A stretch of DNA of 38,075 nucleotides, from contig QHYH01000132.1 in the NCBI GenBank assembly GCA_003223215.1, forward strand, positions 1 to 38,075, given 5' to 3'. Positions 9,081-36,050 of the stretch are shown in pieces (positions within the stretch are counted from its first letter, which is position 1; each line of letters starts with the position of its first letter). Under the pieces are notes generated by a model, which was not told the DNA's origin, did not search any database, and saw only the letters and a list, made by a program, of their open reading frames with translations. This stretch comes from Acidobacteriota bacterium. GTDB lineage: Bacteria > Acidobacteriota > Terriglobia > Acidiferrales > UBA7541. A program made the position numbers and the translations under genes.

Positions 9081-9214
9081 TCTCAGTGCTCCCAATTGAC
9101 GCACAGTTAGGTGCTCAGCTCCATCATCTCAGGCATGGCAGCGTGGTGAGCGCTGCCCCGCCACAAAGTAAAAAGTAAATGGTTGTACAATCGAAAAGGT
9201 ACCAAGCGCTCCTC

Positions 9215-12112: not shown

Positions 12113-12193
12113 CGTTTTTGTACTATAAACCACTTTGCCGGGAAGCTCATAAATCGGGGACTGTCTTTTCTTTCCCACTGTTTTGCGTTTCAA

Positions 12194-14701: not shown

Positions 14702-14752
14702 CCCAGCCTCCCGTGTGGCCTCATGAAGTTCCTCGCCACTGGTGAGAAACAT

Positions 14753-16411: not shown

Positions 16412-16524
16412 CGTCGGGCTCCTCTCCTTTTTGATACTGCTGCCTGCTCGAGCTCAAGATTTCGACAGTAGCATGGTCAGGTCGTGCCAAACTGCGCCCT
16501 GCCCGGACTCGGCAGCGTTTGTGG

Positions 16525-18081: not shown

Positions 18082-18119
18082 CTCGTCTGAACTACTTTTG
18101 ATTTGCTGATTCACTGGAA

Positions 18120-18311
18120 TCAAACAGTCCCTGGTTTGCTTCGAGCGCGATTCCGTACAGGGGAAGATCCAGTTTGTGCCGAGGCCAAAACCTCTTCGGC
18201 CGCGACCCAATCCAGTTCCGGAGAGCCAAAGGGGCGGCCCCGCTTTCCCAGCGTTGGTAAGCGAACTTCGCCTCCCGTTTCATGCGCGTCCGCTGCCAAG
18301 AGCTCGGCCAT
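18120..18311 (-). pseudogene. DUF2934 protein, frameshifted
   Basis: The frame starting at an ATG with GGAGGAG 8 bases upstream ends with GKRGRPFGSPELDWVAAEEVL, the core of DUF2934, a small family common in Acidobacteriota and Proteobacteria. The helix that should precede it (AKFAYQRWE) lies in another frame, within 18092-18283. A single missing base near 18258, in a GAAAG run, would join FAYQRWE to KRGRPFGSPELDW. It may be a real frameshift or a homopolymer error. Function of the family is unknown. It lies between glgP and malQ. Confidence 0.55.
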
Positions 18312-18356
18312 TTTTCAACTCCTCCCGATGCAAACTAAAGGGCGGTTCCCACTGAG

Positions 18357-20906: not shown

Positions 20907-20927
20907 AAGCTGACTCCTCCTGACACC

Positions 20928-22595
20928 TCAGCTACCTGCGGCTACGCGAGCGCGACGCGTGAGCGCCTCCGAAACAATTGCTTGGGCTTCATCCTCGATG
21001 CGCCGCAGATGGTCTGGCCCGAGGAAGCTCTCTGCGTAAATCTTGTAGATTTCTTCCGTGCCTGAGGGCCTCGCGGCAAACCAGCCATCCTTCGCGATCA
21101 CCTTGATTCCGCCGATCGGATTGCCGTCGCCCGGCGCGCTGGACAAGATCTGCTGGACCTTCTGACCGGCAACCTCCACAACGTGCACATCGCTTGGCGA
21201 TAATCTTTGAAGAGCGGCTTTTTGCTCCGGCGTGGCGGGTGCGTCAATGCGCTCATAAACCGGATCACCCAAATCACGGGTGAGTTCACGATAGAGCTCA
21301 CCGGGGTCCTTACCTAGGCACGCGGTGATTTCGGCGGAGAGCAAGCAAGGAATGATCCCGTCCTTGTCGGTGGACCACACCCTGGCGTTGCGGTCGAGAA
21401 ACGAACAGCCGGCGCTCTCTTCTCCTGCGAAACCGAGCCGCTCGGACAACAGGCCTTCGACGAACCACTTGAAACCGACGGGAACCTCGTACAGCGCGCG
21501 GCTCAGCCGCGCGCTGACTCGATCAATCATGCTGCTGCTTACTACGGTTTTGCCAACCGCCACGTTTTGCCGCCAGTCCTTGCGATTCGAAAACAAGTAG
21601 TGAATGCAGGCGGACAAATAGTGGTTCGGTGGCAGCAGCCCGCACCCCTTGGTAACAATTCCGTGACGGTCGTGGTCGGTGTCGCTGGCAAATGCGATGT
21701 CGAACTTGTCTTTCCATCCGATCAACCTCTGCATCGCATAAGGAGAGGAAGGGTCCATGCGAATCTTGCCGTCCCAGTCCACGCTCATGAATCGAAAGGT
21801 TGGATCGATCGTTTTGTTTACAACCGTTAGGTTGAGGCCGTACCGCTCGGCAATCAGCGGCCAATAATCAATACCGGCTCCGCCCAGGGGATCGACACCC
21901 AGCGTGATCCTGGAAGCGCGAATGGTCTCGAGATCAATTACATTTTCGAGATCGCTGACGTAGCACTGGAGGTAGTCGTAGCGATGAATGGTCGAAGCGC
22001 GAAGCGCCTGCGTGAAAGCAACCCGCTTGACGGCTTGCAACCTGTTGCGAAGGAAATCGTTGGCCCGCGATTCGATCCACGAGGTCACATGCGAGTCGGC
22101 CGGTCCGGCGTGCGGAGGGTCGTATTTGAAGCCCCCGTCATCCGGTGGATTGTGAGAGGGAGTAATCACGATGCCGTCGGCGAGTCCCGTTTTTCGTCCG
22201 GCGTTGTAACCCAGGATGGCATGGGACACTGCCGGGGTCGGCGTGTACCTAGTGCCTTCCGACAACATCACGTCGACGTTGTTTGCCGCAAGCACCTGCA
22301 ACGCGCTCGAAAATGCAGGTTCCGATAGCGCGTGCGTGTCCATTCCCAGGAAGAGCGGCCCATCGATCTTCTGCGCCTTGCGGTGATCACAAATGGCCTG
22401 AGTGATTGCCAGGATGTGCCACTCGTTGAAGGCTCCGTCGAAAGCAGAGCCACGATGACCGGACGTGCCGAACACAACCCGTTGCTTCGCGTCAGCGAGG
22501 TCAGGCTGCACGTTGTAGTAGGCAGTGACCAGCTTCGCGACATTCACCAAGATTGCGGGATCCGCTGGCTTTCCAGCGGATCGGTCGATTTCCAT
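20928..22595 (-). CDS. pgm: Phosphoglucomutase, alpha-D-glucose-specific
   Basis: The enzyme interconverts glucose-1-P and glucose-6-P. The 555-residue product has FGTSGHRGSAFDGAFNE (42-58), the phosphoserine loop TPSHNPPDDGGFKYDPPHAG with Ser147, the metal loop ASDTDHDRHG, and the sugar-binding GEESAGCSF and phosphate-binding ARPSGTEEIYKIYAESF. The start at 22595 has GAGGTG 6 bases upstream; an in-frame ATG at 22643 would add an Arg-rich stretch without family similarity. It lies between glgX and glgP, which places it as the central step of the pathway. Confidence 0.95.
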   Translation of the reverse strand: MEIDRSAGKPADPAILVNVAKLVTAYYNVQPDLADAKQRVVFGTSGHRGSAFDGAFNEWHILAITQAICDHRKAQKIDGPLFLGMDTHALSEPAFSSALQVLAANNVDVMLSEGTRYTPTPAVSHAILGYNAGRKTGLADGIVITPSHNPPDDGGFKYDPPHAGPADSHVTSWIESRANDFLRNRLQAVKRVAFTQALRASTIHRYDYLQCYVSDLENVIDLETIRASRITLGVDPLGGAGIDYWPLIAERYGLNLTVVNKTIDPTFRFMSVDWDGKIRMDPSSPYAMQRLIGWKDKFDIAFASDTDHDRHGIVTKGCGLLPPNHYLSACIHYLFSNRKDWRQNVAVGKTVVSSSMIDRVSARLSRALYEVPVGFKWFVEGLLSERLGFAGEESAGCSFLDRNARVWSTDKDGIIPCLLSAEITACLGKDPGELYRELTRDLGDPVYERIDAPATPEQKAALQRLSPSDVHVVEVAGQKVQQILSSAPGDGNPIGGIKVIAKDGWFAARPSGTEEIYKIYAESFLGPDHLRRIEDEAQAIVSEALTRRARVAAGS

Positions 22596-22676
22596 CTGCT
22601 CACCTCGGCGTCTACGGCGAAAACCCCAAAAGGCGCGTGCCAAAAAGAATGCGAGTTTTGTGCTTCCTCTATCCGG

Positions 22677-24824
22677 TTACCCACGCGCTAAAAGTATGGC
22701 ACTCGATCGAGGCCCGACGCGAAAAGTAACCTGATCCTCCGTCGATGGCTCTTTCCCAGGTTCGTAGAGATCCCCAGGCGCCGGACGTGAAGTGTCTACC
22801 GCCAGGCGCCAGAGGTTATTGCCCGACGCGGCGGGAATTGAAAAATCGGACGGTGCTGTGTCGGCATTAAACATCAGGAATAGGTCGGCCTCTGCGTGCC
22901 GCAAAATCAGACACGCAAACGACTTTCGTTCGGGATCAGCCCAGGCGGGAGTCGTGCCTTGCGGTCCAAACCATTGTACCTCGGCGTCGGTGTAGAAGGC
23001 CGCTTTTCTGAGCACCGGATGGGCGCGGCGAAACGCGATCATTCCCCGGGCGAAGCGATGAATCTCCCGGTGCTTTTCGAGAAAGCTCCAGTCCAGCCAG
23101 CTGACGGCGTTATCCTGGCAGTACGCGTTATTGTTACCTCGTTGGGTCCGACGAAATTCGTCTCCGCCCAGCAACATCGGGACGCCACGAGAAATAAAGA
23201 GTGTGAGGAGAAAATTCTTGATCAAGCGATTTCGCAAGGCTTCGACATCGGCGGAATTGCTTGGGCCTTCAACTCCGCAATTGTCGCTGTAATTGGCATC
23301 GGTGCCGTCCCGCCCGTACTCGCCGTTTTCCTCATTGTGCTTTTGTCTATAGGAAACCAAATCATTCAGTGTGAATCCGTCATGACTGGTGACAAAATTG
23401 AGGCTGTTTTCCGGCCCTTTGCCTGATCTTTGGTATAGATCCGCGCTCCCGCAGATGCGGCTAGCGAATAGCCCCATCATTCCCGCCTCACCGAGCCAGA
23501 AGCGGCGCACGTCATCCCGAAAGCGGCCATTCCATTCTGCCCAACGCTTTTCGGAGAAACTTCCCACTTGGTAGGCTCCGCCTGCATCCCAAGCCTCGGC
23601 GATGAGCACGACATCGCGCAAGATGGGGTCTTCCGCGATGCTTTCGAGCAACGGAGCGTTCTGAAGAAGATTGCCATGCTCATCTCGGCCTAGCACGGAA
23701 GCCAGATCGAAGCGAAATCCGTCAACGTGCATGAAAATCACCCAGTACCGGAGCACGTGCACAATGAACTCCCTCACGACCGGGTGGTTTGCGTTGAGCG
23801 TATTACCAACCCCAGAAAAATTTTTGTAATATCGGCGTTCATCCTCCTCGAGCATGTAAAAGATCGAATTATCCGTGCCACGGAGGCAGATTGTTGGACC
23901 GAGTTCATTTCCTTCGCCGGTGTGGTTCAAGACAATATCCAGAATTACTTCGATTCGAGCGCGGTGAAAGCTCTTGACCATTTCACGGAATTCGAGCACC
24001 TGCTGCGCGGCTGATTCCTGGGTGCTGTAAGTTTCTTTGGGGGCGAGGAAGGCGGCCGGATTGTAGCCCCAAAAATTCCTTAGTCGCCCTTTGCTTATCG
24101 GATTTACACGAGATAATTCGTTTTCGTTGAATTCCTGGACGGGCATCAACTCAATCGCGGTCACACCTAAATCTTCTAAATAAGGGATCTTCTCCGTCAA
24201 ACCGCGGTAGGTTCCAGGGTGGACGGCGCGCGAACTCGGGTCGATCGTAAAACCACGAATATGCGTTTCGTAAATGACCGTGTCTGTGGCGGAATGCCTG
24301 AGCGGCAGGTCGCCCTCCCAGTCGAAGTGCGCGTGTGTCAACATGCACTTCGGCATGCAACCTGCATTGTCCACAGTCGAGAAACTTAGATCCCTTAGAC
24401 GGCTCGACGAATCGTAGCCCCGCGCCGCTTCAAAATCCCAGTTCTTCGTTCCGACAAGAGCGGTAGCAAACGGATCGAGGAGCAGCTTATGGACATTGAA
24501 TCGATGTCCGTCTCCCGGCTGATAGGGTCCATCGATCCGGAAGCCATAGAGTTGGCCGGAGGTGATACCTCGAACCCATACGTGCCACACGTCACCGGTT
24601 CGATGTCGTGCCGGATCCAAATCGATCACCCTGGTGGGCGAACAGCCGTCCGGGCTTTCATAGAGCTCCAGGAGAACGCGGGTTGCATGACGGCTGAATA
24701 GCGCGAAATTGACTCCTCCCTCGTATTGGCATGCCCCAAACGGCAGGGGGCTTCCGGCACGAACTTCGCCGCTCGGACTCTCGACACGATTCGACCTACC
24801 CTGTTTTCCGGCCGAGGCAGTCAT
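22677..24824 (-). CDS. glgX: Glycogen debranching enzyme GlgX, GH13
   Basis: The enzyme removes alpha-1,6 branches from phosphorylase-limit glycogen. The 715-residue product has an N-terminal CBM48-like domain (PLPFGACQYEGGVNFALFSR), then the GH13 barrel: VILDIVLNHTGEGNE (region I), DGFRFDLASVLG with nucleophile Asp, LIAEAWD with Glu acid/base, and VTSHDGFTL with Asp. Neither the ATG used here (24824) nor the in-frame ATG at 24902 has a clear ribosome site; the shorter length fits the family better. It is first in the cluster, so the promoter should be in the region above 24902. Confidence 0.92.
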   Translation of the reverse strand: MTASAGKQGRSNRVESPSGEVRAGSPLPFGACQYEGGVNFALFSRHATRVLLELYESPDGCSPTRVIDLDPARHRTGDVWHVWVRGITSGQLYGFRIDGPYQPGDGHRFNVHKLLLDPFATALVGTKNWDFEAARGYDSSSRLRDLSFSTVDNAGCMPKCMLTHAHFDWEGDLPLRHSATDTVIYETHIRGFTIDPSSRAVHPGTYRGLTEKIPYLEDLGVTAIELMPVQEFNENELSRVNPISKGRLRNFWGYNPAAFLAPKETYSTQESAAQQVLEFREMVKSFHRARIEVILDIVLNHTGEGNELGPTICLRGTDNSIFYMLEEDERRYYKNFSGVGNTLNANHPVVREFIVHVLRYWVIFMHVDGFRFDLASVLGRDEHGNLLQNAPLLESIAEDPILRDVVLIAEAWDAGGAYQVGSFSEKRWAEWNGRFRDDVRRFWLGEAGMMGLFASRICGSADLYQRSGKGPENSLNFVTSHDGFTLNDLVSYRQKHNEENGEYGRDGTDANYSDNCGVEGPSNSADVEALRNRLIKNFLLTLFISRGVPMLLGGDEFRRTQRGNNNAYCQDNAVSWLDWSFLEKHREIHRFARGMIAFRRAHPVLRKAAFYTDAEVQWFGPQGTTPAWADPERKSFACLILRHAEADLFLMFNADTAPSDFSIPAASGNNLWRLAVDTSRPAPGDLYEPGKEPSTEDQVTFRVGPRSSAILLARG

Positions 24825-25180
24825 CGACAGATCGCTTTCAAGCCGTAACCATGACCGACCTAACTTGCTGAAAAATTGGCTACTTCTCGCAGATGGAAAC
24901 ATCCAATGATGCGCGATTCAGCGGTCGACATACCTTCGATGTATCAAAACAAGACGCCGATGTAACTTTTTTTTTGAACGGCTCACTTTCCGACTGAGAC
25001 GGCGCATTTGGAACGGCAGTTACGCCGAACCTTTCGCCACATTTCTGGTGCGTCGCGTAGGACTGGCGCAATAACCGTACAGCCGCACCACCGCCAAGCC
25101 TCTGATTCGTCCACAAAGCGGTAAAGTCCAAGCTGTTCCAAAAGCCAGGAACGGGATAATGCACCGCAGTCATGGCAGTG

Positions 25181-25602: not shown

Positions 25603-26433
25603 ATGGGGGACATAAAACATTCGGTACCGAAGTGGATAACCGGAACGATTTGTCTCGTAATGATTTCACTGCTGGGCGCTGCCCCAGCATGGGCTCAGAC
25701 CGAGAAGCACACGGTGTTCACCGAATACGATTTCCATTGGCTGGGACAATTGAAGGCTGGGCAGACGCTGGAAGTAATCAATCGAAACGGGCAGATTGAG
25801 GCGAGCGCTGTTGCGGGCGACGAAGCGCGTGTCGAAGGCATTAGGAGAGGCAACGATGACGACCGCGATTTGTTTATCGAAGTCGTTGAGTATTCCGACG
25901 GCGTGACGATTTGTGCCGTGCACGCCAACGACAAGACGCCCGGGCGATGCCATCGCGGCGGTGTGTCCTCCGAGTCCAATAGCTGGCACGGGAATCGCGC
26001 GAAGATTAACTTCGACGTGCAAGTGCCGCCGGGCGTCCGCTTCAATGCCCTGACGACCAACGGAAACGTACTGGGCCGCAACCTGGCAAGCGTGGTGGAG
26101 GCGGCGACGACGAACGGCAACGTGGAAGTTTCCACAAGCCAGTGGGCCTCAGCCACAACAACCAACGGTGGAATCCGCCTGTCTATGGGCAGCGCGAAGT
26201 GGAACGGCGAGTTGCAGGTGAAAAGTACAAACGGCAGCGTGGATGTGACCCTCCCGGCGTCGGCGGAATTCAAACTAGATGCGGTCACCACGAATGGCGG
26301 GATTCACACGGATTTTCCGATTACCGTACAGGGGAGCTTCAGTTCGAAGGAACTTTCCGGGACCGTGGGCGGAGGCGGAAGGGAATTAAAAGTCGCAACA
26401 ACCAACGGCACGATTAAGCTGATGAAGAGCTGA
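25603..26433 (+). CDS. Secreted DUF4097-type beta-repeat protein
   Basis: The 276-residue product has a Sec signal peptide (hydrophobic core ICLVMISLLGAAPAWA, cleavage near AWA-QTE). The mature part contains repeated turns of the form TTNGxI/V: NRNGQIEA, TTNGNVLG, TTNGNVEV, TTNGGIRL, STNGSVDV, TTNGGIHT and TTNGTIKL, about 15-30 residues apart, as in the DUF4097 putative-adhesin family that folds as a beta-helix-like stack. Two Cys (CAVH and CHRGG) could form a disulfide. AGAAGGAGATAGACC precedes the ATG, a strong ribosome site. It is probably an envelope or surface protein; the function is not known. Confidence 0.8.
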   Translation: MGDIKHSVPKWITGTICLVMISLLGAAPAWAQTEKHTVFTEYDFHWLGQLKAGQTLEVINRNGQIEASAVAGDEARVEGIRRGNDDDRDLFIEVVEYSDGVTICAVHANDKTPGRCHRGGVSSESNSWHGNRAKINFDVQVPPGVRFNALTTNGNVLGRNLASVVEAATTNGNVEVSTSQWASATTTNGGIRLSMGSAKWNGELQVKSTNGSVDVTLPASAEFKLDAVTTNGGIHTDFPITVQGSFSSKELSGTVGGGGRELKVATTNGTIKLMKS

Positions 26434-27320
26434 AGAGAAAAGACGAGATAATCCACCAACTCACTGGCGAAGCTATCAAGTTGAAGCCCGGGCTTCATAA
26501 GAAAACTCGCGATTCCATTCTCGAGCTTCTAGCGTCGCTGCCCGTTTCCCGGACTCCTCCTCTTGACAACCAGGATGAGAAGCGTAGGGTCCTGTTGGTA
26601 GCCAAGGGATGAACGGGGATTTGCGGGATGCACATGCCGAGCTTAACGCCGCCAATGCGGCTGTTGGAAGTTGACACGCCGAATGGGCAGCACTTTTGCA
26701 CGATCTTCGACCTCGCCTCCCTCCCATGATTCGCCTATGCATTGACAACCTTGGTTTCACTCGGCAAGAATCCACACGCAAAGAATGGCTCGCAAGAAAT
26801 GCAATCCTTTGCCTCCCGAAATCCTCGCCGTGCCGCGAGGCTCGCCAAACCTCGAACCCTGCCGGAAATTCCGCCGCAGAAGGCATGTAGAGATTCTGGG
26901 TCGCTCGGGCCGGCACCGGGTTCGAGCAGCGGGAAGAGCCGCAGGGAGGTGACTTGGGAGCCGAAGGTCCAAGCTGCAAGCGCAAACTGCTCGTTTCGAC
27001 GAATCATCTTGGTTTTGCTCATGGCTTTTTGTGCGCTGTTCACCCGGCTCCTTAGCGCCTCGCGGCCTCAGAAAAACGGCGACTCTGCACTTGCAGGGAT
27101 TGCCCACACCATCATCTTTTGGGCCACGCCGGAAGATGCGCTGCGTCTGGGCGCGGCTTCGGCCGCAGCAAACTGCCTTGCCGGTTCTCCGGGCGCAACG
27201 CGGCTCGGGCACATTCGCCGCTTGCAGAACGAGATTCGTCTGGAAACAATCGAGACGGGTCCTGAGCATTTCCGGTATGACAGCTTTCTACGAAGCAGCT
27301 GGTCCGCGCAGGAGGGTGTT
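26434..27320. other. Mostly noncoding stretch with a sugar-kinase remnant
   Basis: This 887-base gap between the DUF4097-type gene and the TIM-barrel gene has an open frame that continues in frame into the TIM-barrel gene. Its first part (26742 to about 27060) resembles nothing known and is Arg/Ser/Pro-rich. Its last part is the PfkB remnant listed separately. Confidence 0.5.
27070..27252 (+). pseudogene. C-terminal remnant of a PfkB-family sugar kinase
   Basis: The translated stretch NGDSALAGIAHTIIFW, then TPEDALRLGAASAAANCLAGSPG, matches the C-terminal end of PfkB-type hexose kinases (1-phosphofructokinase / tagatose-6-P kinase branch). There the GDS block follows the catalytic GAGD-like anion hole and the helix APEDALRLGVAAGAAN is typical. 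The rest of the ~310-residue kinase, including the catalytic Asp motif in full, is absent. It lies in the same frame as the next gene but ends before it. It is a relic left by deletion. Confidence 0.55.
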
Positions 27321-28157
27321 ATGAAAAAATCGATCGGCGACAACATGATCCCGAGAGGTTGGAGTTTCGAGCAGGGGCTCGAGCTGGTAAAGAAGGCCGG
27401 CTACGACGGTATTGAGCTGTGGCTCGGGGAGGTCCCTTGGTTCCAGATGAACACCACCGACACGCAGGTAACGGAGCTGCGCCGCAAGGTGGAAAATGCC
27501 GGTCTGGTGGTCTCCAACGTTTCGACCGGCCTTCATTGGAAGACTCCGCTCTCGGCGCGCGATCCCAAGGTCCGAGCCGAGGCCATTCGCATCGTCGAGC
27601 GCGAGCTGGAGACGGCTCAGCTGCTCGGTTGCGACGCCATCCTTGTGGTGACTGGGCTGGTGACCCAAGAGGTTCCGTACAACGAGGTGTACCAGCGCTG
27701 TCTCGACGCCATGCAGCAACTTACTCCGGTTGCAGCCAAGGCGCGAGTCAAAATCGGTTGCGAGAACTGCAATTCGGAACAACGCTTCCTGCTGACGCCC
27801 AGGGAATTCTGGACATTCCTCAATGAGGTGGATAGTCCTTTCGTCGGCATCCATCTTGATGTTGGAAATATCCACGACACGGGCTTCGCCGAGCAATGGA
27901 TTGAGATGCATGGCCCGCGCATAACGCGCATTCATCTAAAGGACGTCATGAAAAAGCGTGGACGATGCTGCGACACCGTCTATACGAGTCTTTTCATCGG
28001 CGACAACGACTGGCCTGCCATCCGAGCAGCGCTGACGAAAGTGCGCTATGACGGGTGGTTGATCGCGGAGATGGAAGCGCGCTATCGTTACGCCCAGGAC
28101 CAGCAGTTTTACGACACCGCGGCTGATATGGACCGCCTGATTTCCGCCAAGTTATGA
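27321..28157 (+). CDS. Sugar-phosphate isomerase/epimerase-like TIM-barrel protein
   Basis: The 278-residue protein belongs to the xylose-isomerase-like TIM-barrel (AP endonuclease 2) superfamily. The metal-site residues expected of the family are visible at Glu148 (IGCENC), Asp180 (GIHLDVGN), His205 (TRIHLKD) and Glu250 (LIAEMEA). Related proteins include sugar epimerases/isomerases and lyases acting on 3-keto-glycosides. There is no signal peptide, so it acts in the cytoplasm. The start at 27321 has GGAGG about 6 bases upstream; the open frame continuing upstream is the kinase relic. Its stop overlaps the next ATG (ATGA). Confidence 0.9.
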   Translation: MKKSIGDNMIPRGWSFEQGLELVKKAGYDGIELWLGEVPWFQMNTTDTQVTELRRKVENAGLVVSNVSTGLHWKTPLSARDPKVRAEAIRIVERELETAQLLGCDAILVVTGLVTQEVPYNEVYQRCLDAMQQLTPVAAKARVKIGCENCNSEQRFLLTPREFWTFLNEVDSPFVGIHLDVGNIHDTGFAEQWIEMHGPRITRIHLKDVMKKRGRCCDTVYTSLFIGDNDWPAIRAALTKVRYDGWLIAEMEARYRYAQDQQFYDTAADMDRLISAKL

Positions 28158-28924
28158 ACCCAAAGGCTGCAGGGGCGTGGATGCACATCTCGCGCCGAAA
28201 TTTTCTGCATGGTATGACCGCATCGGCCGGCACGCTATGGTCATCCCGCGTTACCGGATTGGATAACCTTGCTGGTCGGCAGTTCGATTGCGTTGTTCTC
28301 GATCTGACGTCACATTGCGTTCTGGGCGAATCGTTGCAAGGCTACCAGGCGGCATTCGCCGATGAGCATCATTGTCTTGCGGCAGACAGACTCGACTCAC
28401 GATGGCGCTGCCGGATGGTAATTGCTCCAGGCGTTGGAATGATGGACCCCGCGATAGGGCGCATGCTGCTGGAGTTAGTCCAAGGAGGGACGCGCCTTGT
28501 GCTGGAATCCGGCGCGGGATTTCTAAGCCCGGCCGAGACTGCCGCGCACCAGCGGATGTTGTTTCGTTGCTTTGAGCTGGAGGTTGAGCCGCCTGTCGAT
28601 CTGTGGTCTGGAAAGCTTGCTGATGACGATCTTTTCGCCAGCCGCAGCAGCCCACATCGAAGAAAGACGATCGACGGCCGCCAAGCGATCCCCTATGTCC
28701 GCTACGTTTGGCCGCGCGAGATAATGGTCCGGGGCTTCACCCGGGTGATTCCTGTGTCCGCGAAACTCGGAGAAGTAATCGGCTGGGTCGGATCACTCGC
28801 AGTGGCGTCGAAGCGCCCAGTAGGCAGGGGAACGTTGATTTTCCTCGGCTCCCCGCTGGGTCCGGCGCTCCGGGCAAGCGATCCTGAGGCGCGATCCTGG
28901 CTCCAGTCGGTTGTCTCGGTCTGA
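28154..28924 (+). CDS. Tat-exported protein of unknown function, possibly amidotransferase-like fold
   Basis: The 256-residue product has a twin-arginine signal (HISRRNFLHGMTASAGTL) and is probably exported folded. The body has MVIAPGVGMMDPAIGRMLLELVQGGTRLVLESGAGF and GRGTLIFLGSPLGPAL, which recall the Rossmann-like glutamine-amidotransferase/ThuA fold, but no catalytic Cys-His pair can be placed. It overlaps the TIM-barrel gene by ATGA, implying coupled translation. An alternative start is the ATG at 28181. Function unknown; context suggests a part in the same sugar pathway. Confidence 0.6.
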   Translation: MNPKAAGAWMHISRRNFLHGMTASAGTLWSSRVTGLDNLAGRQFDCVVLDLTSHCVLGESLQGYQAAFADEHHCLAADRLDSRWRCRMVIAPGVGMMDPAIGRMLLELVQGGTRLVLESGAGFLSPAETAAHQRMLFRCFELEVEPPVDLWSGKLADDDLFASRSSPHRRKTIDGRQAIPYVRYVWPREIMVRGFTRVIPVSAKLGEVIGWVGSLAVASKRPVGRGTLIFLGSPLGPALRASDPEARSWLQSVVSV

Positions 28925-29236
28925 GCGTCGGCATCCAGCCGCTGCGGCGCAGCCAGCGTTTGATGACAACCTAGCGGATGAGAATCACAACAGCGTCTAC
29001 AGAGACTACCACTACCAGCGCCTCAACATGGGCAGCGCTCCCGGGTTGCGCTCGATCCACCCCCGGGTAGGCCTTTCCCTACGAGACCCAGGCGAAGCGC
29101 CGGACAGGGTGCGCCCGATGTCCCTAGATCGGTCGCATTTTTTTGATTTTGGGACACCCCTGGCGTTTGCTATAGTCGGCGTCTTGCAAGGTGCAATCCT
29201 GAGATCTATGTTTCATGGATTGCGGGGAGTTTTTCT
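28925..29236. other. Intergenic region with a promoter
   Basis: These 312 bases separate the Tat-exported gene from the GMC gene. They contain a CCCGGG-based inverted repeat (29039-29067), a T-run near 29138-29144 and the promoter called at 29149-29176. I see no gene in it. Confidence 0.5.
29149..29176 (+). promoter_or_regulatory. Sigma70-type promoter for the GMC/subunit-3 genes
   Basis: TTGGGA (29149-29154) as -35 and TATAGT (29171-29176) as -10 are separated by 16 bases. TGC directly before TATAGT makes an extended -10. Transcription would begin about 29183, leaving a leader of roughly 54 bases to the GTG at 29237. This suggests the GMC block has its own promoter, separate from the TIM-barrel gene. 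Confidence 0.5.
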
Positions 29237-30994
29237 GTGACGGAACCAGAGGCGAATCTCAGCAAAACTTACGATGCGGTAATTGTCGGCTCGGGCGCGG
29301 CCGGCGGCATGGCCGCACACGTCCTCACCTCTCACGGCCTGCAGGTGCTGTTGCTGGAGGCCGGGAAAAAGCTGCCCATCGAACAGGAATTGCGCTCGAT
29401 GGAGTGGCCTTACGACAATGCTCACCGCGGAGACCTCCCGCCGGAGTCGCATGCGCTGACCTTCAACGAATACACCATTCGCAATCCGCCCTACGGCGCA
29501 GGCTTTGAGAAGGCCCGGCACCTTCGCAGCTACGTCGGGAACAGCGATTACGTCAAAAATATTGTTGTTGACGAGCGCGAGAATCCGTTCACGGGCACGA
29601 ACTACGCGTGGGTGCGCGCGCGATGTCTGGGCGGAAAAACAAATATCTGGGGAAGGCTGGCGCTGCGCCTCTCCGACTACGACTTCAAGGCCAAGAGTCG
29701 CGACGGTTTCGGCGAAGATTGGCCTATCAGCTATAGCGACATCGCCCCTTACTACGACAAGGTGGATTTGTATCTCGGCATCATGGGCGTGAAGGAGAAC
29801 TTGCCGCATCTTCCCGACGGCATATTTCAGCGTCCGCAGAAATTGAATTGTGCCGAAGTCACGCTGAAACAAAGTCTGCAAAAAATGGGCCGCGTGTTGA
29901 CACAGTACCGCGCCGGCGTCACCAGCGAAGGACTGAAGCACAACAAATATCGCAGCCGGTGCTACGGGCGCGGCTCCTGTGAACGCAAAGGCGGATGCGA
30001 CATTCATGCCGCGTTTGACTCGCCGACCGGCCTGATCTATCCCGCGATGGACACGGCGAATCTGAGCTTGCGCACCAACGCAGTGGTGCGCGAAGTTACG
30101 GTAGATCCGCAGACAGGCAAAGCCAGCGGCGTGCATTTCATCGATGCGCAGACGATGAAGGACTACACCGTTCGCGCAAAGGTCGTAGTGCTAGCGGCGT
30201 CCACGCTCGAATCCGCCAGGTTGCTGTTGCTGTCGAAGTCGCGGTCGCATGCGAATGGGCTGGCGAACTCGAGCGGCCACGTCGGCCACAATTTCTGCGA
30301 GCATATTATGGGACCGGGGGTGACCGGCCGTGCGAAAGACTTGGTCGGCAAGCCGTCGACTCTGGACGATGGGCGTCCCGGTGGATTCTACTTGACCAGA
30401 TTTCGCAATCTTTCAGAGAAACACCCCAAATTCATCCGCGGTTATGGCTTTGAAGGCGGCAGCGGGTGCCGCATGTTTCCGAGTGGGACCGACGTGCACG
30501 GCTTCGGCGCGTCCTTCAAAGAAGAAGTTCGCAAGAACCAGGGCGCGTACATTGGCATGGGTGCCTTCGGTGAGGTTCTGGCGCGCTACGAAAACTACGT
30601 TGATTTGGATCCTGTAGTGAAAGACAAGTGGGGCATTCCCGCCTTGCGTTTTCACTATAAGTTCGGAGACAACGAGCACCGCATGGCCGAGGACATGAAA
30701 GAGACGGCGCAGGAGATGTTCGAGGCCGCGGGATTCGAGATTGTGCACGTCAGAAGCCGGGTGCTCACTGAAGGCTGGTCGATTCATGAGCTAGGCACCG
30801 CGCGCATGGGCGACGATCCCAAAACCTCGGTTCTGAATCAGTTTCAGCAGTCGCACGATGTACAGAATTTGTTCGTCGTCGATGGCAGCGGCTTCGTCAG
30901 CGCCAGTTGCCAAAATCCCACCTGGACCATCATGGCGTTGTGCTGGCGCTCCTGTGACTACCTGGCGGACGAATTTCGAAAAGGAAATTTGTAG
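29237..30994 (+). CDS. GMC-family oxidoreductase large subunit (second locus)
   Basis: The 585-residue flavoprotein has VIVGSGAAGGMAAHVL with LLLEAG (FAD domain), RCLGGKTNIWGRLALRL, and the active-site end HELGTARMG with CQNPTWT. C242, C248 and C254 form C-x5-C-x5-C in the place where the first GMC gene has CxxCxxCxxxC, so any cluster would be of a different type. GGGGAG lies 7 bases before the GTG start. No signal peptide is present, so export with the Tat-bearing subunit encoded just downstream is likely. Probable role: oxidation of a sugar or glycoside in the periplasm; the substrate is unknown. Confidence 0.9.
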   Translation: MTEPEANLSKTYDAVIVGSGAAGGMAAHVLTSHGLQVLLLEAGKKLPIEQELRSMEWPYDNAHRGDLPPESHALTFNEYTIRNPPYGAGFEKARHLRSYVGNSDYVKNIVVDERENPFTGTNYAWVRARCLGGKTNIWGRLALRLSDYDFKAKSRDGFGEDWPISYSDIAPYYDKVDLYLGIMGVKENLPHLPDGIFQRPQKLNCAEVTLKQSLQKMGRVLTQYRAGVTSEGLKHNKYRSRCYGRGSCERKGGCDIHAAFDSPTGLIYPAMDTANLSLRTNAVVREVTVDPQTGKASGVHFIDAQTMKDYTVRAKVVVLAASTLESARLLLLSKSRSHANGLANSSGHVGHNFCEHIMGPGVTGRAKDLVGKPSTLDDGRPGGFYLTRFRNLSEKHPKFIRGYGFEGGSGCRMFPSGTDVHGFGASFKEEVRKNQGAYIGMGAFGEVLARYENYVDLDPVVKDKWGIPALRFHYKFGDNEHRMAEDMKETAQEMFEAAGFEIVHVRSRVLTEGWSIHELGTARMGDDPKTSVLNQFQQSHDVQNLFVVDGSGFVSASCQNPTWTIMALCWRSCDYLADEFRKGNL

Positions 30995-31001
30995 GTGGAA
31001 C

Positions 31002-31616
31002 ATGTCTAGCAATGATCCGGTTGATCTGCGGCAAGATCGTCGGGAATGGTTGAAGAGTTCGGCCGCGGCACTCGGCGCATCGCTGCTGCCTTTGCCTGCC
31101 CTGAGCGGAGAGCAGCCGCAAACCGCGACGCCGCCGAGTAAGCCGGCGGCAAGCTCCGCGCCAAACAAACCCGCGGGGCGTTTCTTTACTCCCGCCCAGC
31201 ATGCGCTGGTCGAGGAGTTGTCAGAGACGATCATCCCCGCGGACAGCCATTCCGGCGGCGCAAAAGCAGCAAAAGTTGCCGATTATATCGAGCAGTTTCT
31301 CAGCGAAACCGATGACGACAATCAGAAGGCGCTGTGGCGTGAAGGCCTGCGACTGGTCGATTTAATGAGCCGCCATTACCACCAAAAATCCTTTGTTGAC
31401 TCGGGCCCAGAGGAAAGGATCGCACTTCTTCAGGTGCTTTCCGATAACGATCACATGACCGACCTTCCCGAAGTGCGCTTCTTTATTGAATTGAAACGGC
31501 TTACGGTGCGCGGCTATTACACGTCCAAAATCGGCATCCACGCTGAGCTCGACTACAAAGGCAATCGGATTCTCCAGGAGTATGTCGGCTGCGACGACCA
31601 AGGCACTTCGTCGTAA
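31002..31616 (+). CDS. Gluconate 2-dehydrogenase subunit 3 family protein (second locus)
   Basis: The 204-residue small subunit begins with a twin-arginine signal (RQDRREWLKSSAAALGASLL) and continues with HALVEELSETIIPADSHSGG and VADYIEQFL, the gluconate-2-dehydrogenase subunit 3 pattern. The start at 31002 is chosen because AGGTGG lies just upstream and it begins the signal; the frame is open further back inside the GMC gene. It begins 8 bases after the GMC stop, so the two form one unit, here with large subunit first, the reverse of the 5086-7400 locus. Such subunits escort GMC partners through Tat. Confidence 0.88.
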   Translation: MSSNDPVDLRQDRREWLKSSAAALGASLLPLPALSGEQPQTATPPSKPAASSAPNKPAGRFFTPAQHALVEELSETIIPADSHSGGAKAAKVADYIEQFLSETDDDNQKALWREGLRLVDLMSRHYHQKSFVDSGPEERIALLQVLSDNDHMTDLPEVRFFIELKRLTVRGYYTSKIGIHAELDYKGNRILQEYVGCDDQGTSS

Positions 31617-31706
31617 CCTGGGAGCGCGGCGGTCTTGCATCCCAAGCGAAGTCGCAGGGCCGCCTGCTTGGCAGTGCTCAATCGGATTTTTGAGGCAGAG
31701 ACGGAA

Positions 31707-32828
31707 ATGGCGGACGGCAAAGTAAAGGTCGGCATCATCGGCTCGCAATTCCAGGCGGACATTCACGCCGCGTCCTTGCAAATCATGCCGCATGAGGCGG
31801 AAGTGCTTGCCATCGCCTCTCCGACTGCCGGCAATGCTGCGGCGTTGGCAAAAAGGTTCGGCATTCCGCGAGTCTTCACCGATTACCGCGAGATGCTGAA
31901 AGAGCGCGACCTTGAGATGATCACCATCGCCGCGCCCAACAGCCTGCATGCACAGATGACCAAGGACATCGCTGCCGCCGGCAAGCACATCGTCTGCGAA
32001 AAGCCCCTGGCCATGACCATTGCCGAAGGCGAAGAAATGATCGCGGCAGCGAAACGCCACGGCGTTCTCCTGATGTACGGCGAGGAACTTTTCTTTACCC
32101 CGAAATATCTAAAAGCCAAGGAAATGGCGGATTCCGGCGCATTTGGCAAGGTCTATCTGGTCAAACAAAGCGAAAAGCATTTCGGGCCGCACAGCGCGTG
32201 GTTTTGGGACGTGAATCGCTCCGGCGGTGGCGCACTGATGGACTTGGGCTGCCACGGTATCGCGTTTTGCTATTGGCTCCTCGGCCGCTCGCCAATCAAG
32301 TCGGTCTACTGCCAGATGGGCACCTACGTTCACGGCGACAAGACCAAAGCCGAAGACGATTCTTTGTGCATCCTGGAGTTCGCCAATGGCGCCGTAGGAC
32401 TGGTTGAAAACAGCTGGGCGCGCCGCGGCGGCATGGACGATCGCATTGAAGTTTTCGGCGAGGATGGGTGCACTTACGCCAATTTGCACATGGGCAACGC
32501 CCTGCCGACGTACAGCGAAAACGGTTACGGATACGCCGTCGAAAAGGCGCCTAGTACGAAAGGTTGGACGTATCCCGTCTTCGAGGAACTCTGGAATTAC
32601 GGCACGCCGCAAGAGCTGACCCACTTCGCGCGCAGCGTTCGTGGGAAAGAGACGCCGCAAGCTACGGGCGAAGATGGCTTGGTCGTGCTGCGCGCGATTT
32701 ATGCGGGTTATGCCTCCGCGGGCGAGGGCCGCAAAATCGCGCTCCCTTACCTGCCGCCTCCTGGCGTCAAAAAGCCCATCGATCTGTGGCTGGACGGCGC
32801 GTCCCGACAGCAACGCGCGCCGCATTGA
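31707..32828 (+). CDS. Gfo/Idh/MocA-family oxidoreductase
   Basis: The 373-residue cytoplasmic dehydrogenase binds NAD(P) through VGIIGSQFQADIHA and has the catalytic-Lys motif CEKPLAM and the GGGALMDLGCHGIAF block with Asp and His. The dinucleotide loop lacks the third Gly of the classic GxGxxG. Family members oxidise or reduce sugars, including steps that reduce 3-keto-sugars. The start at 31707 begins the conserved domain; upstream frame residues are unlike the family. It follows the GMC pair and precedes an MFS permease, suggesting one sugar-processing operon. Confidence 0.88.
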   Translation: MADGKVKVGIIGSQFQADIHAASLQIMPHEAEVLAIASPTAGNAAALAKRFGIPRVFTDYREMLKERDLEMITIAAPNSLHAQMTKDIAAAGKHIVCEKPLAMTIAEGEEMIAAAKRHGVLLMYGEELFFTPKYLKAKEMADSGAFGKVYLVKQSEKHFGPHSAWFWDVNRSGGGALMDLGCHGIAFCYWLLGRSPIKSVYCQMGTYVHGDKTKAEDDSLCILEFANGAVGLVENSWARRGGMDDRIEVFGEDGCTYANLHMGNALPTYSENGYGYAVEKAPSTKGWTYPVFEELWNYGTPQELTHFARSVRGKETPQATGEDGLVVLRAIYAGYASAGEGRKIALPYLPPPGVKKPIDLWLDGASRQQRAPH

Positions 32829-32907
32829 GGACCGTCATTCTTGTGTGTCCCCTTTCCTTTAACTATGGCACTCTTGCATCGGCCGACGGCTGTCACGAGG
32901 TGATTCC

Positions 32908-34152
32908 GTGCCTTTCTCGATGAGAATGCGTCTCTCCCTGATGATGTTTCTGGAGTATTTCATTTGGGGCGCGTGGTACGTCACCCTGGGGACTTGGCTA
33001 GGACAACAATTGCATTTTTCGGGCGAGCAGATCGGCGTCGCCGCCGGGACGACCGCCTTGGGCGCCGCGATTTCACCGTTCCTCGTCGGACTCATGGCGG
33101 ACGAGCTGTTCGCCAATCAGCGGCTGCTGGCCGCGCTGCACGGTATCGGCGGCGTGCTCCTGTGGTTTGCCTCCACACAAAAAGCTTTCGGTCCGATGTA
33201 TGCGGTCTTGCTCATCTATTCGCTTTGCTACATGCCCACGATGGCGCTGACCAATGCGCTCGCCTTTCGCCAGATGAAAGACCCCAAGCAGGATTTTGGA
33301 TCGATTCGCGTCCTGGGGACCGCCGGGTGGATCGTTGCCGGCCTGCTTATCGGTTTTCTTCGCGTCGAACCGACAGCCATTCCCATTCGTATCGCAGGTG
33401 CGGCCTCTCTATTGATGGCCATTTACAGCCTGACACTGCCCCACACGCCGCCTTTGCGCTCTGCCCACGGATTCAAACTGAGCAATATCTTTCCGCCGGA
33501 GGCCTTTACGCTTTTTAAGGATCGCAACTTCTCGATCTTTGTCCTGGCCTCATTCCTTATCTGCATTCCTCTGCAGTTCTACTACACGTTTACCAATCCA
33601 TTCCTGAATGAAATCGGCATGCAAAATGCCGCCGGCAAAATGACCATGGGCCAAATGTCCGAGTTGCTCTTCATGGTAACGTTGCCATGGTTCTTCCGCC
33701 GGGTCGGCGTGAAGTACACCCTCATGCTGGGCATGTTCGCCTGGGTTGTGCGCTACATTTGCTTTGGCACAGGGAACACCGGCAGCTTGCTGCCGCTGCT
33801 CTATCTGGGAATCGTCCTTCACGGCATCTGCTATGACTTTTTCTTCGTGACCGGACAGGTGTATGTGGACCAAAAAGCGCCTCCGGCACTCCGCGCTGTG
33901 GCGCAGGGGTTGATCTACTTCATTACCTATGGCATCGGGATGTTCGTCGGGTCCTGGATCTGTGGCGGCATTGTAGATAGGTACGCGAAATCCCTGGTGT
34001 CAGGCGGAGTGGTCCATGACTGGCGCTCCATCTGGATGGTGCCGGCCATCGCGTCGGCGGTAGTCTTACTATTCTTCTGGGTCGGATTCCGGCGTGAAGA
34101 ACGTCCGCCCCAGCAGCCCACGCCTGTCGCCGAAGCTACGGTGAGTCGCTAA
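32908..34152 (+). CDS. MFS permease of the nucleoside:H+ symporter (NHS) type
   Basis: The 414-residue membrane protein has about 12 hydrophobic segments; the first reads LSLMMFLEYFIWGAWYVTLG, a signature of the NupG/XapB-like NHS branch. This branch is often found beside Gfo/Idh/MocA and TIM-barrel genes and may carry sugars or derivatives. GAGGTG lies 6 bases before the GTG at 32908; the ATG at 32920 is a shorter alternative. Likely role: import of the oxidised sugar produced outside. It ends the plus-strand operon. Confidence 0.85.
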   Translation: MPFSMRMRLSLMMFLEYFIWGAWYVTLGTWLGQQLHFSGEQIGVAAGTTALGAAISPFLVGLMADELFANQRLLAALHGIGGVLLWFASTQKAFGPMYAVLLIYSLCYMPTMALTNALAFRQMKDPKQDFGSIRVLGTAGWIVAGLLIGFLRVEPTAIPIRIAGAASLLMAIYSLTLPHTPPLRSAHGFKLSNIFPPEAFTLFKDRNFSIFVLASFLICIPLQFYYTFTNPFLNEIGMQNAAGKMTMGQMSELLFMVTLPWFFRRVGVKYTLMLGMFAWVVRYICFGTGNTGSLLPLLYLGIVLHGICYDFFFVTGQVYVDQKAPPALRAVAQGLIYFITYGIGMFVGSWICGGIVDRYAKSLVSGGVVHDWRSIWMVPAIASAVVLLFFWVGFRREERPPQQPTPVAEATVSR

Positions 34153-34265
34153 GGGACTAATTCCACAGCAACAAACGAAAAACGGCAGGAGCGGCCGCAA
34201 CACCACTGTTTAGAACATTTGCCTTTTGACCTGGATGATCGGACCGACGCGAGAAGATTGGTGCG

Positions 34266-34288
34266 GCTAGCGGTAGTTTACCGCTAGC
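34266..34288. terminator. Strong hairpin between convergent genes
   Basis: GCTAGCGGTA (34266-34275) and TACCGCTAGC (34279-34288) form a perfect 10-bp stem with a GTT loop. It lies between the permease stop (34152) and the stop of the minus-strand gene (34374). Neither side has a clear T-run, so it is at most an atypical bidirectional terminator or an mRNA-end stabiliser. Confidence 0.5.
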
Positions 34289-34373
34289 GAGAAGCGATCC
34301 CTATTCAGCCGTGACGCCATTTTTGCGGTTGGAGGACAGCAGGTCGGCGAACGATGGGTAGCAAAAAACGAAT

Positions 34374-36050
34374 CTAACGTGTCTGCACTTCGACAGGGTC
34401 CGGCAAGTGCATCGAGCCCTCCGTCAGCTCTCCAATCGTCACGTTTTGCCCATGCTCGACGTAGCGCAAGAGCACACTAGGCTGCAACCATGCAGAACCC
34501 CAGGCGTCCTCTACCGCGACGATCGTATATGCTCCGGGAATCACTCCTCGGAGCACGAAGCTTCCATCTAAATCGCTCTGATCCCTTCGGAACATTTCCT
34601 GGTGCAATTCAGGATCTTTTGGCACCAGGATCACCATGACACCAGCCATGGGCTTCTCTCCGCGTTTCGCGAATCCTTCCAGGGTCACCACGCCGCCGGC
34701 CAAGAACACCGTTAGGTCGAGAGACGCACCCGGCGTTACATTCAGCTCGTGGCCAGAGGTTTCGACTCCCTGAGACGAAGTGCGAACCACGGAATATGGC
34801 TTGGTGGGAGAGGAGACCAGGATCGCGTATTTGCCCGCAGGAAGCTCCTCGAATCTCACTTCGCCGGCACTATCAACGGGCCTGACGGCTACAACGCGCT
34901 GCCGCGAGTCTTGCAAAGCGATAGAGAACTGCTTCGGGAATGGGTCTCCCCGCGGAAGCTTTACCGACAATTTCGCGGTACCTGCCGGTTCGCTGATGGG
35001 TTCGTCCAATTCTTGACCATTTCTGGCCAGGTCCATCTCAGTCGGCTGTAGGAGTTGGCTAGTCTTTGGTTCACGCCGGCGGACGATGTATTTCCCCGCC
35101 GGAACCCCCTTCAACTCATAAACGCCAGGAGCCACCATTTGCATTCCTTCGGGTTGAACGTGTTCCTCCGAATCAAAGACCCGTTTCCGAAGCACCGGCA
35201 TGCTGAACCCGTGCTGATCGTCGGATACACGGAAGATGAAATGAAGGGCAGGGACGGGACTCAGGTGCACATCGATCTGCAGGCGATCGCCACCTCTGAC
35301 CGGGATGGCTGTAGCCCCATCGGCTTCCGTTGCCCCGTTGTAATAGGTCGTCGGATAGGCCACGTCCAGCGACGGCGCAACTCCTGGCGGCGGATTTGCC
35401 GTGCCATCGGCAGAAGAAGAAACAGGGTGGACGGCATACCATGGGTTCGCTGCCACGGACACAAAGTAATTCCCAGGCGCTAGAGACGGAAACTCGTAGG
35501 AACCCCGGTCGTCGGTCAAAGCGGTGCCCACGGGCATAATGCGGTTCAGCCCGCCAGCGTGGTTTTCCTGATAAAGCGTGATGCGTGCATGGCGGACGGG
35601 ATCCCCCGACTCATCGAAGATTTGGCCGGCCAGCAGCGCCCGCGGCGTGAGCCGCAAAACGAGGCTCTCGGTGTCGAGGCCGGCCCCGGTCACGATTGCG
35701 GTGGAATATTGTTCGTGCTGATCATAAGCGGCGGAGATAAATCCGCGTTTCGCTCCCTGCAACGAGAACTTGCCCGCCTTGAGCTGAGGGAATTCAAAAT
35801 GCCCATTCTCAGAAGTGATCGTCCATGCGGAGTTCGCGCGGTTGCTGGTATCGAAGATCGAAACGCGGGCTTTCCCGATCGGCGCCCCGTTGAGTGCGTT
35901 TACGATCGTGCCCGCGATTCTAAACTTTGTATCATGAGAGTTGCTTTGCTCGGCGTTCTGTGCGCCGAGAGTAGCGCAGCAGGGCAGCAGGAGAAGCACC
36001 AGCGCGAGGGGTCGCAATCGAATCGCTCGTAAAAGGCCGAACATGCTCAC
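34374..36050 (-). CDS. Secreted protein with carboxypeptidase-regulatory-like domains
   Basis: The 558-residue product has a Sec signal peptide (RPLALVLLLLPCCATLGAQ) and at least three beta-sandwich repeats of the CarboxypepD_reg-like type: one around AGTIVNALNGAPIGKARVSIF (about 46-66), one at GQIFDESGDPVRHARITLYQ, and a C-terminal one at VTLEGFAKRGEKPMAGVMVILVP, each ending in GxFxxxxLxPGxY. These domains are probably structural or ligand-binding. The ATG overlaps the stop of the upstream gene in an ATGA. No catalytic motif is visible. Tandem pairs like this occur widely in Acidobacteriota. Confidence 0.8.
   Translation of the reverse strand: MSMFGLLRAIRLRPLALVLLLLPCCATLGAQNAEQSNSHDTKFRIAGTIVNALNGAPIGKARVSIFDTSNRANSAWTITSENGHFEFPQLKAGKFSLQGAKRGFISAAYDQHEQYSTAIVTGAGLDTESLVLRLTPRALLAGQIFDESGDPVRHARITLYQENHAGGLNRIMPVGTALTDDRGSYEFPSLAPGNYFVSVAANPWYAVHPVSSSADGTANPPPGVAPSLDVAYPTTYYNGATEADGATAIPVRGGDRLQIDVHLSPVPALHFIFRVSDDQHGFSMPVLRKRVFDSEEHVQPEGMQMVAPGVYELKGVPAGKYIVRRREPKTSQLLQPTEMDLARNGQELDEPISEPAGTAKLSVKLPRGDPFPKQFSIALQDSRQRVVAVRPVDSAGEVRFEELPAGKYAILVSSPTKPYSVVRTSSQGVETSGHELNVTPGASLDLTVFLAGGVVTLEGFAKRGEKPMAGVMVILVPKDPELHQEMFRRDQSDLDGSFVLRGVIPGAYTIVAVEDAWGSAWLQPSVLLRYVEHGQNVTIGELTEGSMHLPDPVEVQTR

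Follow-up and report, generated by a model that had tools for sequence, protein, structure and literature searches.

Keto-glycoside routes have recently been recognised as an alternative to glycoside hydrolysis. The GlycDH/AtOGE/AtHYD/Gfo operon of Agrobacterium tumefaciens, as set out in part of its published description (PMC10628242), encodes a flavin-dependent glycoside dehydrogenase, a Gfo oxidoreductase and two TIM-barrel proteins of the sugar phosphate isomerase type, and its authors co-expressed the dehydrogenase with a protein bearing a twin-arginine translocation (Tat) signal. In Caulobacter, the LacABC system, found with DUF1080, is a membrane-bound dehydrogenase that oxidises sugars at C3 in the periplasm (excerpts of PMC9007349). 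The FAD glucose dehydrogenase of Burkholderia and the fructose dehydrogenase of Gluconobacter share a GMC subunit, a Tat-signalled small subunit and 3Fe-4S cysteines; the Burkholderia small subunit is called, in the relevant sections of PMC6719666, a hitchhiker protein whose twin-arginine signal aids secretion of the catalytic subunit. Here we describe a locus of related gene content in an Acidobacteriota bacterium, on a stretch of 38,075 nucleotides (contig QHYH01000132.1 of assembly GCA_003223215.1, hereafter the window) that is one entire contig of an 8.8-Mb genome in 279 contigs. Six of its genes encode a xylose-isomerase-like TIM barrel (P0001), a Tat-signal protein (P0002), a GMC dehydrogenase (P0003) with its small subunit (P0004), a Gfo/Idh/MocA oxidoreductase (P0005) and a permease of the nucleoside:H+ symporter (NHS) family (P0006). 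We refer to P0001 and P0002 as module A and to the other four as module B. At about even odds (roughly 50%), we read the locus as a keto-sugar pathway of these two modules, in which P0001 would form a complex with P0002 and be co-exported with it.

The new part of the block is the P0001/P0002 pair. Compared with the Agrobacterium operon, the window has a single TIM barrel that lacks the eliminase histidine, and it has in addition a GH42M-like Tat protein and an NHS permease. The Caulobacter LacABC subunit types presumably match those of the window; unlike that system, the block showed neither a DUF1080 hydrolase nor a gene for a cytochrome, with DUF1080 matches lying elsewhere in the genome.

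The pair is well supported as a conserved unit. Scanning a collection of species genomes with a P0001 profile returned 54 loci (55–91% identity) in Acidobacteriota, Gemmatimonadota and one Nevskia soli bin, of which 52 could be assessed for a partner (L118 and L119 hold two halves of one gene, and no more than 381 nt follow the gene in L094). A P0002-family gene is present in 43 of the 52 and lies directly downstream of P0001 in 41, while the two genes are 2.1–2.5 kb apart in L093 and L119. We assigned P0002 starts in 40 of these 43 loci (L078, L082 and L120 are cut or split and were left out), with preference given to starts that place two arginines (RR) near the N-terminus. The P0002 start falls between −4 and +8 nt from the P0001 stop in 35/40 cases, and in the window the genes overlap by 4 nt when the first P0002 ATG is taken. 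Export signals were judged by motif and by eye throughout. All 40 aligned P0002 rows (the window and 39 relatives) contain RR, a count that the choice of starts favoured where RR was near, and none of 51 P0001 start regions, including those of loci without P0002, shows an export signal. The pair thus has the features of a hitchhiker pair, namely a signal on one partner only together with coupled genes. Moreover, P0001 and P0002 distances correlate (Mantel r 0.80, 0/2000 permutations, 39 rows), shared species history contributing to this value, and the two trees match in their broad groups. In a thin sample of 396 genomes across the phylum, P0001 was found in two and the P0002 profile in three, with two shared (one being the window's own); the third, G207, is a GH42 case described below, and stand-alone P0002 occurs only in the two P0001 genomes. 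The pair also occurs in L110, the Nevskia soli (Pseudomonadota) bin, where both proteins fall among Acidobacteriota rows in their trees, indicating either misbinning or transfer. Neither the pair nor the exact six-gene cluster was described among the matches listed in a search of titles and abstract starts of open-licence PMC literature.

P0002 had been listed in the original prediction as an unrecognised extra Tat protein. It indeed matches no Pfam or NCBIfam family save for a weak TAT_signal match; its GH42M-like domain and its tie to a TIM barrel make it something other than a random extra. Translation of P0002 probably begins at codon 10 (28181, MHISRRNFL), matching the start in its closest relative. 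Conserved residues of the protein include E59, E118, R193 and a GSPLGP stretch. An AlphaFold model built from 40 rows had a predicted local distance difference test (pLDDT) score of 85.6, with block means of at least 89 over residues 41–150 and 181–256. Among the matches listed by VIA-align, the model superposes on residues 435–647 of 7vl0, an Ignavibacterium beta-1,2-glucosyltransferase (Z 18.6, 172 residues, root-mean-square deviation 2.5), on the GH42 structure 5xb7 (Z 16.9) and on GH164 (Z 16.9). A profile of P0002 (alignment A3) also matches two proteins of G207, a genome of the same class (3.7e-18 and 8.6e-16), which combine Tat-like starts (MSISRRNF, MTISRRSF) with Glyco_hydro_42 and Glyco_hydro_42M domains. 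Direct matches to PF08532 were weak (11/40 rows, best 0.0013, none for P0002 itself), as were those to PF14258 (DUF4350; 9/40 rows, best 0.004), and a PDB profile search with P0002, weak evidence when taken alone, ranked adenosine kinase first (0.013) and beta-galactosidases at 0.022–0.062. A ThuA-like or glutamine-amidotransferase identity was rejected, since glutamine-amidotransferase folds reach Z of about 13, below the 14.2–18.6 of GH42-type domains, and the profile relatives are GH42+GH42M proteins. Based on the predicted fold and these independent profile relatives, P0002 is best described as a Tat signal followed by a predicted stand-alone GH42M-like domain.

P0002 therefore appears to share the trimerisation-domain fold of GH42 beta-galactosidases (PF08532), with Tat-signalled GH42 proteins as its sequence relatives, but differs from them in having no catalytic GH42 barrel: PF02449 appears neither among the P0002 matches nor in the family lists of the 40 aligned rows, and the adjoining barrel is encoded separately and belongs to another family. 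The GH42 accessory domain packs with a TIM barrel. P0002 may descend from a Tat-exported GH42 protein that lost its barrel. We tentatively entertain, at somewhat below even odds, the more specific possibility that the pair is one two-subunit periplasmic sugar enzyme, in which P0001 would be exported folded and with its metal by P0002, itself descended from the trimerisation domain of a Tat-exported GH42 beta-galactosidase whose catalytic barrel would have been lost, its place being taken by P0001 as a separately encoded barrel of another superfamily.

The other half of the pair resembles ketose epimerases. The AlphaFold model of P0001 (pLDDT 90.8) gave, among the matches listed by VIA-align, its best Z of 28.6 with the L-ketose 3-epimerase 5h1w and with Art22, and Z 26.9 with YcjR, an Escherichia coli 3-keto-D-glucoside epimerase according to the portion of PMC11543891 that bears on it. 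Residues E148, D180, H205 and E250 of the putative metal site are invariant in 32/32 aligned P0001 rows, and in a hidden Markov model alignment this Glu-Asp-His-Glu site lines up with that of D-tagatose/psicose 3-epimerases. P0001 differs from these enzymes in sequence, with about 19–22% identity, and it alone is noted with a conserved Tat partner. The position of the eliminase base is occupied by Cys150, likewise invariant in 32/32 rows; this assignment comes from an alignment to TIM barrels with a His-x-His motif and not to AtOGE itself. Parts of PMC10628242 report that AtOGE needs His134 as its base, with His143 the counterpart in PuCGE, and P0001 further has Glu148 in place of His132. The site of P0001 would thus fit epimerisation or hydration better than elimination.

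For comparison, we aligned P0001 with 18 TIM barrels from clusters of the GMC type. Seven plasmid clusters supplied 15 of them (a sixteenth annotated there was cut by the stretch), and three came from G033, L109 and L113. Six of the 18 carry His-x-His, all with an N-terminal signal; five are signal-less proteins of about 350 residues with Glu-x-His; three are Tat-exported and carry Glu-Leu-Leu; and the other four are a protein beside a DUF6379 gene, one from Catenovulum and the two Tat proteins encoded in L109 and L113. In total, 12/18 have an export signal. P0001 fits none of these residue and signal patterns.

These comparisons bear on a classical non-hydrolytic beta-elimination, in which the GMC enzyme would oxidise C3, P0001 would act as a 3-keto-glycoside lyase and Gfo would reduce 3-keto-glucose. 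Operons with such a logic have been described in Agrobacterium, Bacillus smithii and strain PUE, the cluster types agree, and the C-glycoside eliminase (CGE) PuCGE (7bvr/7exz) is a distant profile match of P0001 (E 0.03). However, the base histidine of AtOGE and PuCGE is missing from P0001, whereas the six exported His-x-His barrels have retained the motif. DUF6379, which we take to be the second subunit of CGE and whose neighbouring TIM barrel we take to be CGE-like, stands beside a TIM barrel in the Croceicoccus cluster and not in the block; P0002 showed no such match, and its predicted fold is a different one. Because P0001 lacks the eliminase histidine and resembles a ketose epimerase, a lyase is the less likely chemistry, and we regard beta-elimination as very unlikely here. 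The Croceicoccus plasmid (L140, 274–1688), in which the TIM barrel gene is followed by the DUF6379 gene within a GMC/Gfo cluster, offers a parallel in which a small partner accompanies a TIM barrel.

The dehydrogenase of module B was expected to group with sugar dehydrogenases rather than with alcohol or cholesterol-type oxidases, and scores against solved structures and curated models agree with this. Among the matches listed, P0003 reached 128–133 bits with the glucose (Burkholderia) and fructose (Gluconobacter) dehydrogenases (PDB relatives 6a2u and 7w2j) and at most 66 bits with other GMC structures, sugar and glycoside oxidases, while alcohol and choline oxidases scored 22–23 bits in the same search. 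Curated models for choline-dehydrogenase, mycofactocin-type, pyranose-oxidase and cholesterol-oxidase proteins gave 47–65 bits, all under their cut-offs. In an alignment to 6a2u, C242, C248 and C254 of P0003 coincide with Cys212, Cys218 and Cys222 of the Burkholderia enzyme BcGDH, named as its 3Fe-4S ligands in part of PMC6719666. A Tat-type signal is present on P0004 and none is evident on P0003, and by analogy P0004 is presumed to be the hitchhiker carrier of P0003. His517 and Asn560 of P0003 presumably form the GMC catalytic pair. Relative to the Burkholderia and Gluconobacter enzymes, which are matched at about 132 bits, the locus differs in having no adjacent electron-transfer subunit gene and a small subunit not detectable by sequence against structures (nothing better than E 0.22 for P0004).

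The genome holds 12 Gluconate_2-dh3 genes (13 matches, two being pieces of one frame), two of them in the window. At 5086–7400 there is a second pair of Tat small subunit and GMC genes, small subunit first, whose GMC protein is 48% identical to P0003, and a 263-amino-acid open reading frame (ORF) at 3007–3798, whose matches cover only the last part of GMC_oxred_N but almost the entire GMC_oxred_C profile, is possibly a truncated or frameshifted GMC gene. Inside the block there is, as the original prediction noted, no glycoside hydrolase; elsewhere the window holds two minus-strand alpha-L-fucosidase (PF01120) genes (7707–9104 and 10505–12193), which are close to the second GMC pair and could supply it with, or share with it, a fucoside substrate.

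We confirmed the six genes as one plus-strand block at 27321–34152. Pfam families back five of the six proteins, P0002 being the exception, and the gaps are 312 nt (P0002–P0003), 7 nt (P0003–P0004), 90 nt (P0004–P0005) and 79 nt (P0005–P0006). A second genome of the same genus, G017, has all six genes in identical order, with 77–92% identity for five proteins and 59% for P0002. The ratio of nonsynonymous to synonymous substitution rates (dN/dS) between the two is 0.04–0.11 for five genes (0.043 for P0001) and 0.335 for P0002. Based on this shared order and these dN/dS values, the block is more than a chance arrangement. G030 probably holds it in pieces, since its GMC, small subunit and Gfo genes share a short contig with the final part of a P0002 gene, and the first 46 residues of a P0001 (91% identity) are encoded at the end of a second contig. 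G017, G025 and G033 retain the gene order GMC, small subunit, Gfo, NHS (the G025 permease is cut by the contig end), and in G033 the module B block adjoins a TIM barrel that is Tat-exported and carries His-x-His of the eliminase type. G006, G016, G031 and G043 have only the GMC and small subunit genes within the 20 kb examined. Conservation of the neighbourhood is therefore partial: the whole block is complete in one close relative, in pieces in another and nowhere else whole.

Module A nevertheless recurs beside genes of the module B type. In G082 and G096, the order TIM barrel, Tat protein, GMC, small subunit is found with a distant GMC paralog (45–46%) and with a 47% Gfo relative about 4 kb upstream; PfkB, SIS and amidohydrolase genes lie in between in G082. 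GMC proteins of the P0003 group (69–71%) are encoded near P0001 in L103, with P0002, and in L109 and L113, without it. Gfo relatives of 65–68% identity lie within 10 kb of P0001 in four Gemmatimonadota loci, at a distance of 0.7 kb in L084, and two haloarchaeal plasmid relatives of P0001 (36 and 38%) adjoin Gfo and PIG-L genes and sugar ABC transporters. These recurrent GMC and Gfo neighbours of P0001 support keto-sugar chemistry.

Annotated clusters elsewhere hold the same gene types. A P0003 relative was found in 49 plasmid records, and we opened 12 neighbourhoods, hand-picked among the annotated records in a list of 25. Within 7 kb, a sugar phosphate isomerase or TIM barrel was present in 7/12, Gfo in 6/12, DUF1080 in 6/12 and at least one of these three in 9/12, with a nucleoside permease in 2/12. 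The three neighbourhoods without any of them carry GH92 and TonB genes (H1), aromatic-type genes (H5) and a feruloyl esterase (H22). Plasmids of Hymenobacter volaticus and Xanthomonas sacchari bring together GMC, small subunit, nucleoside permease, Gfo, TIM barrels, cytochrome c and DUF1080, in line with the original prediction that families of keto-glycoside chemistry meet in this locus. No P0002 relative was found in the 12 neighbourhoods (best E 0.065). With the same gene types on annotated plasmids and P0002 absent there, the gene set of the window belongs, once P0002 is set aside, to a known kind of keto-glycoside cluster.

In the pathway that we favour, P0004 would carry P0003 through the Tat system, and P0003 would oxidise a hydroxyl of a sugar or glycoside in the periplasm, most likely at C3, a position suggested by the cluster types. 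Electrons would pass from P0003 through the 3Fe-4S cluster to the respiratory chain. P0001 would form a complex with P0002, the sole bearer of a Tat signal in the pair, and would rearrange the keto-sugar with the help of its metal, moving a proton at the position adjacent to the carbonyl, to give epimerisation or hydration rather than a classical elimination. P0006 would then import the product and P0005 would reduce its keto group in the cytoplasm. We infer the substrate, the physical complex, the reaction type and the reaction order, and the permease and Gfo steps are proposed from family and context. P0005 (best PDB relatives 6nor and 6jw6) and P0006 (392.5 bits against NCBIfam TIGR00889, cut-off 446.1) show no export signal, and hence the idea of a periplasmic pathway would hold for the first steps and not for the later ones. 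In L128 (1769–3103), a Gfo/Idh/MocA gene immediately upstream of P0001/P0002 encodes its own Tat-like signal (NRRSFLG), and the Gfo step may therefore be periplasmic in some relatives. Co-export of P0001 by P0002, or "hitchhiking", is the inference we favour because the constant companion of P0001 combines a Tat signal with an accessory-domain fold, and by analogy with P0004.

Several observations weigh against this picture. P0002 is absent from 9/52 assessable loci (L072, L081, L088, L090, L108, L109, L111, L112 and L113), so P0001 can work without it. Three of these, Gp13 metagenome-assembled genomes (L072, L081 and L090), share a different neighbourhood; P0001 is followed by a multi-haem cytochrome gene in L109 and L113 and by a frame with haem motifs in L112; and no convincing substitute Tat protein was found downstream in ten loci examined. 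One genome, G021 (73% complete), has an end piece of P0002 with only a 28% P0001 paralog found. The dN/dS of P0002 is about eight times that of P0001, albeit still below 1. Gemmatimonadota form one group in the P0001 tree (98/96) and not in the P0002 tree, where two changes would be needed, and the Gp11 rows cluster with the window for P0002 (94/95) but belong to a different group for P0001. Of the 18 TIM barrels from GMC-type clusters, six lack a signal, which makes a cytoplasmic P0001 plausible. On the block as a whole, a GMC match was found within the available DNA of 6/54 P0001 loci, with a small-subunit piece alone in one more, many contigs being short. There is no gene for a cytochrome electron-transfer subunit among the six genes of the block; the rest of the genome was not searched for one. 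Finally, terminator-like and promoter-like sites between the modules give a weak hint of two transcripts: a consensus scan of 27100–34400, itself weak, found 1 promoter-like site where shuffles gave 3.0, and 16 terminator-like sites over the two strands where they gave 8.2.

The points concerning the pair fit an arrangement like YcjQRS, in which a cytoplasmic P0001 would be a C4- or C2-epimerase acting on an imported 3-keto-sugar that Gfo then reduces, and P0002 would be a separate periplasmic sugar-binding or assembly protein, merely co-regulated. The signal-less P0001, the alignment of its site with D-tagatose/psicose 3-epimerases, the likeness to YcjR (a 3-keto-D-glucoside 4-epimerase, Z 26.9), the six signal-less barrels and the nine loci without P0002 are all consistent with this arrangement. 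However, it leaves unexplained why a Tat protein of glycoside hydrolase accessory type follows P0001 so regularly (41/52), mostly in touching or overlapping frames and with correlated divergence. We place it on the unlikely side.

The points concerning the block invite the view that two unrelated units happen to be neighbours, with P0001/P0002 serving another sugar and GMC/Gfo/NHS serving keto-sugars. Both G025 and G033 carry module B and yielded no P0001 ortholog (nothing in G025 and a 31% paralog only in G033), module A is mostly seen with no GMC gene nearby, and the two are separated by a 312-nt gap with the terminator-like and promoter-like sites. We also rejected GMC as a general feature of module A: among clusters of ORFs of at least 100 amino acids in the 54 loci, those present in more than 10 loci were P0001/P0002 (54) and opposite-strand ORFs at the same place (52) only. 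Set against this, module A stands beside GMC repeatedly and in varied arrangements (the window, G017, G082, G096 and L103), P0001 does so even without P0002 in L109 and L113, and the 65–68% Gfo relative recurs near module A in the four Gemmatimonadota loci. We find this view quite unlikely, while the original idea of a single pathway locus is modified to one of six genes together in two modules with separate distributions.

The coordinates of the block are collected in Table 1. Closely upstream of it, at 25603–26433, lies a gene for a DUF4097 (Toastrack) protein with a signal-like N-terminus. Further away, on the minus strand at 13289–24902, we read by eye genes for glucose-6-phosphate dehydrogenase, phosphoglucose isomerase, 4-alpha-glucanotransferase, glycogen phosphorylase, phosphoglucomutase and debranching enzyme.

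Table 1. Layout of the six-gene block in window positions (aa, amino acids).
Feature	Position	Strand	Details
P0001, xylose-isomerase-like TIM barrel	27321..28157	+	278 aa; Pfam AP_endonuc_2 1.3e-44
P0002, Tat-signal protein with predicted stand-alone GH42 trimerisation-like (GH42M) domain	28154..28924	+	probable start 28181
Gap between modules A and B, 312 nt	28925..29236	+	terminator-like site 29115-29132 and promoter-like site 29149-29176, from a weak consensus scan
P0003, FAD GMC dehydrogenase catalytic subunit	29237..30994	+	585 aa; GMC_oxred_C 2.6e-21, GMC_oxred_N 1.1e-16
P0004, small subunit of the Gluconate_2-dh3 family, Tat-like signal (QDRREWLKSS)	31002..31616	+	Pfam PF13618 1.4e-27; RR motif
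P0005, Gfo/Idh/MocA NAD(P)-dependent oxidoreductase	31707..32828	+	GFO_IDH_MocA PF01408 1.2e-28, PF22725, PF02894
P0006, NHS-family (nucleoside:H+ symporter) MFS permease	32908..34152	+	Nuc_H_symport PF03825 3.4e-116, 389 bits

Acidobacteriota and Gemmatimonadota are large, mostly uncultured phyla whose use of sugars is poorly known. If the pair is as we read it, P0002 and its relatives would be a family of Tat partners without a confident Pfam family, and the export of a non-redox sugar isomerase by its partner would be a case of hitchhiking outside redox enzymes. The pair would also be an instance of domain replacement across subunits, and the combination of a TIM barrel with a GH42M-like Tat protein would provide a marker for keto-sugar steps that proceed without a known eliminase.

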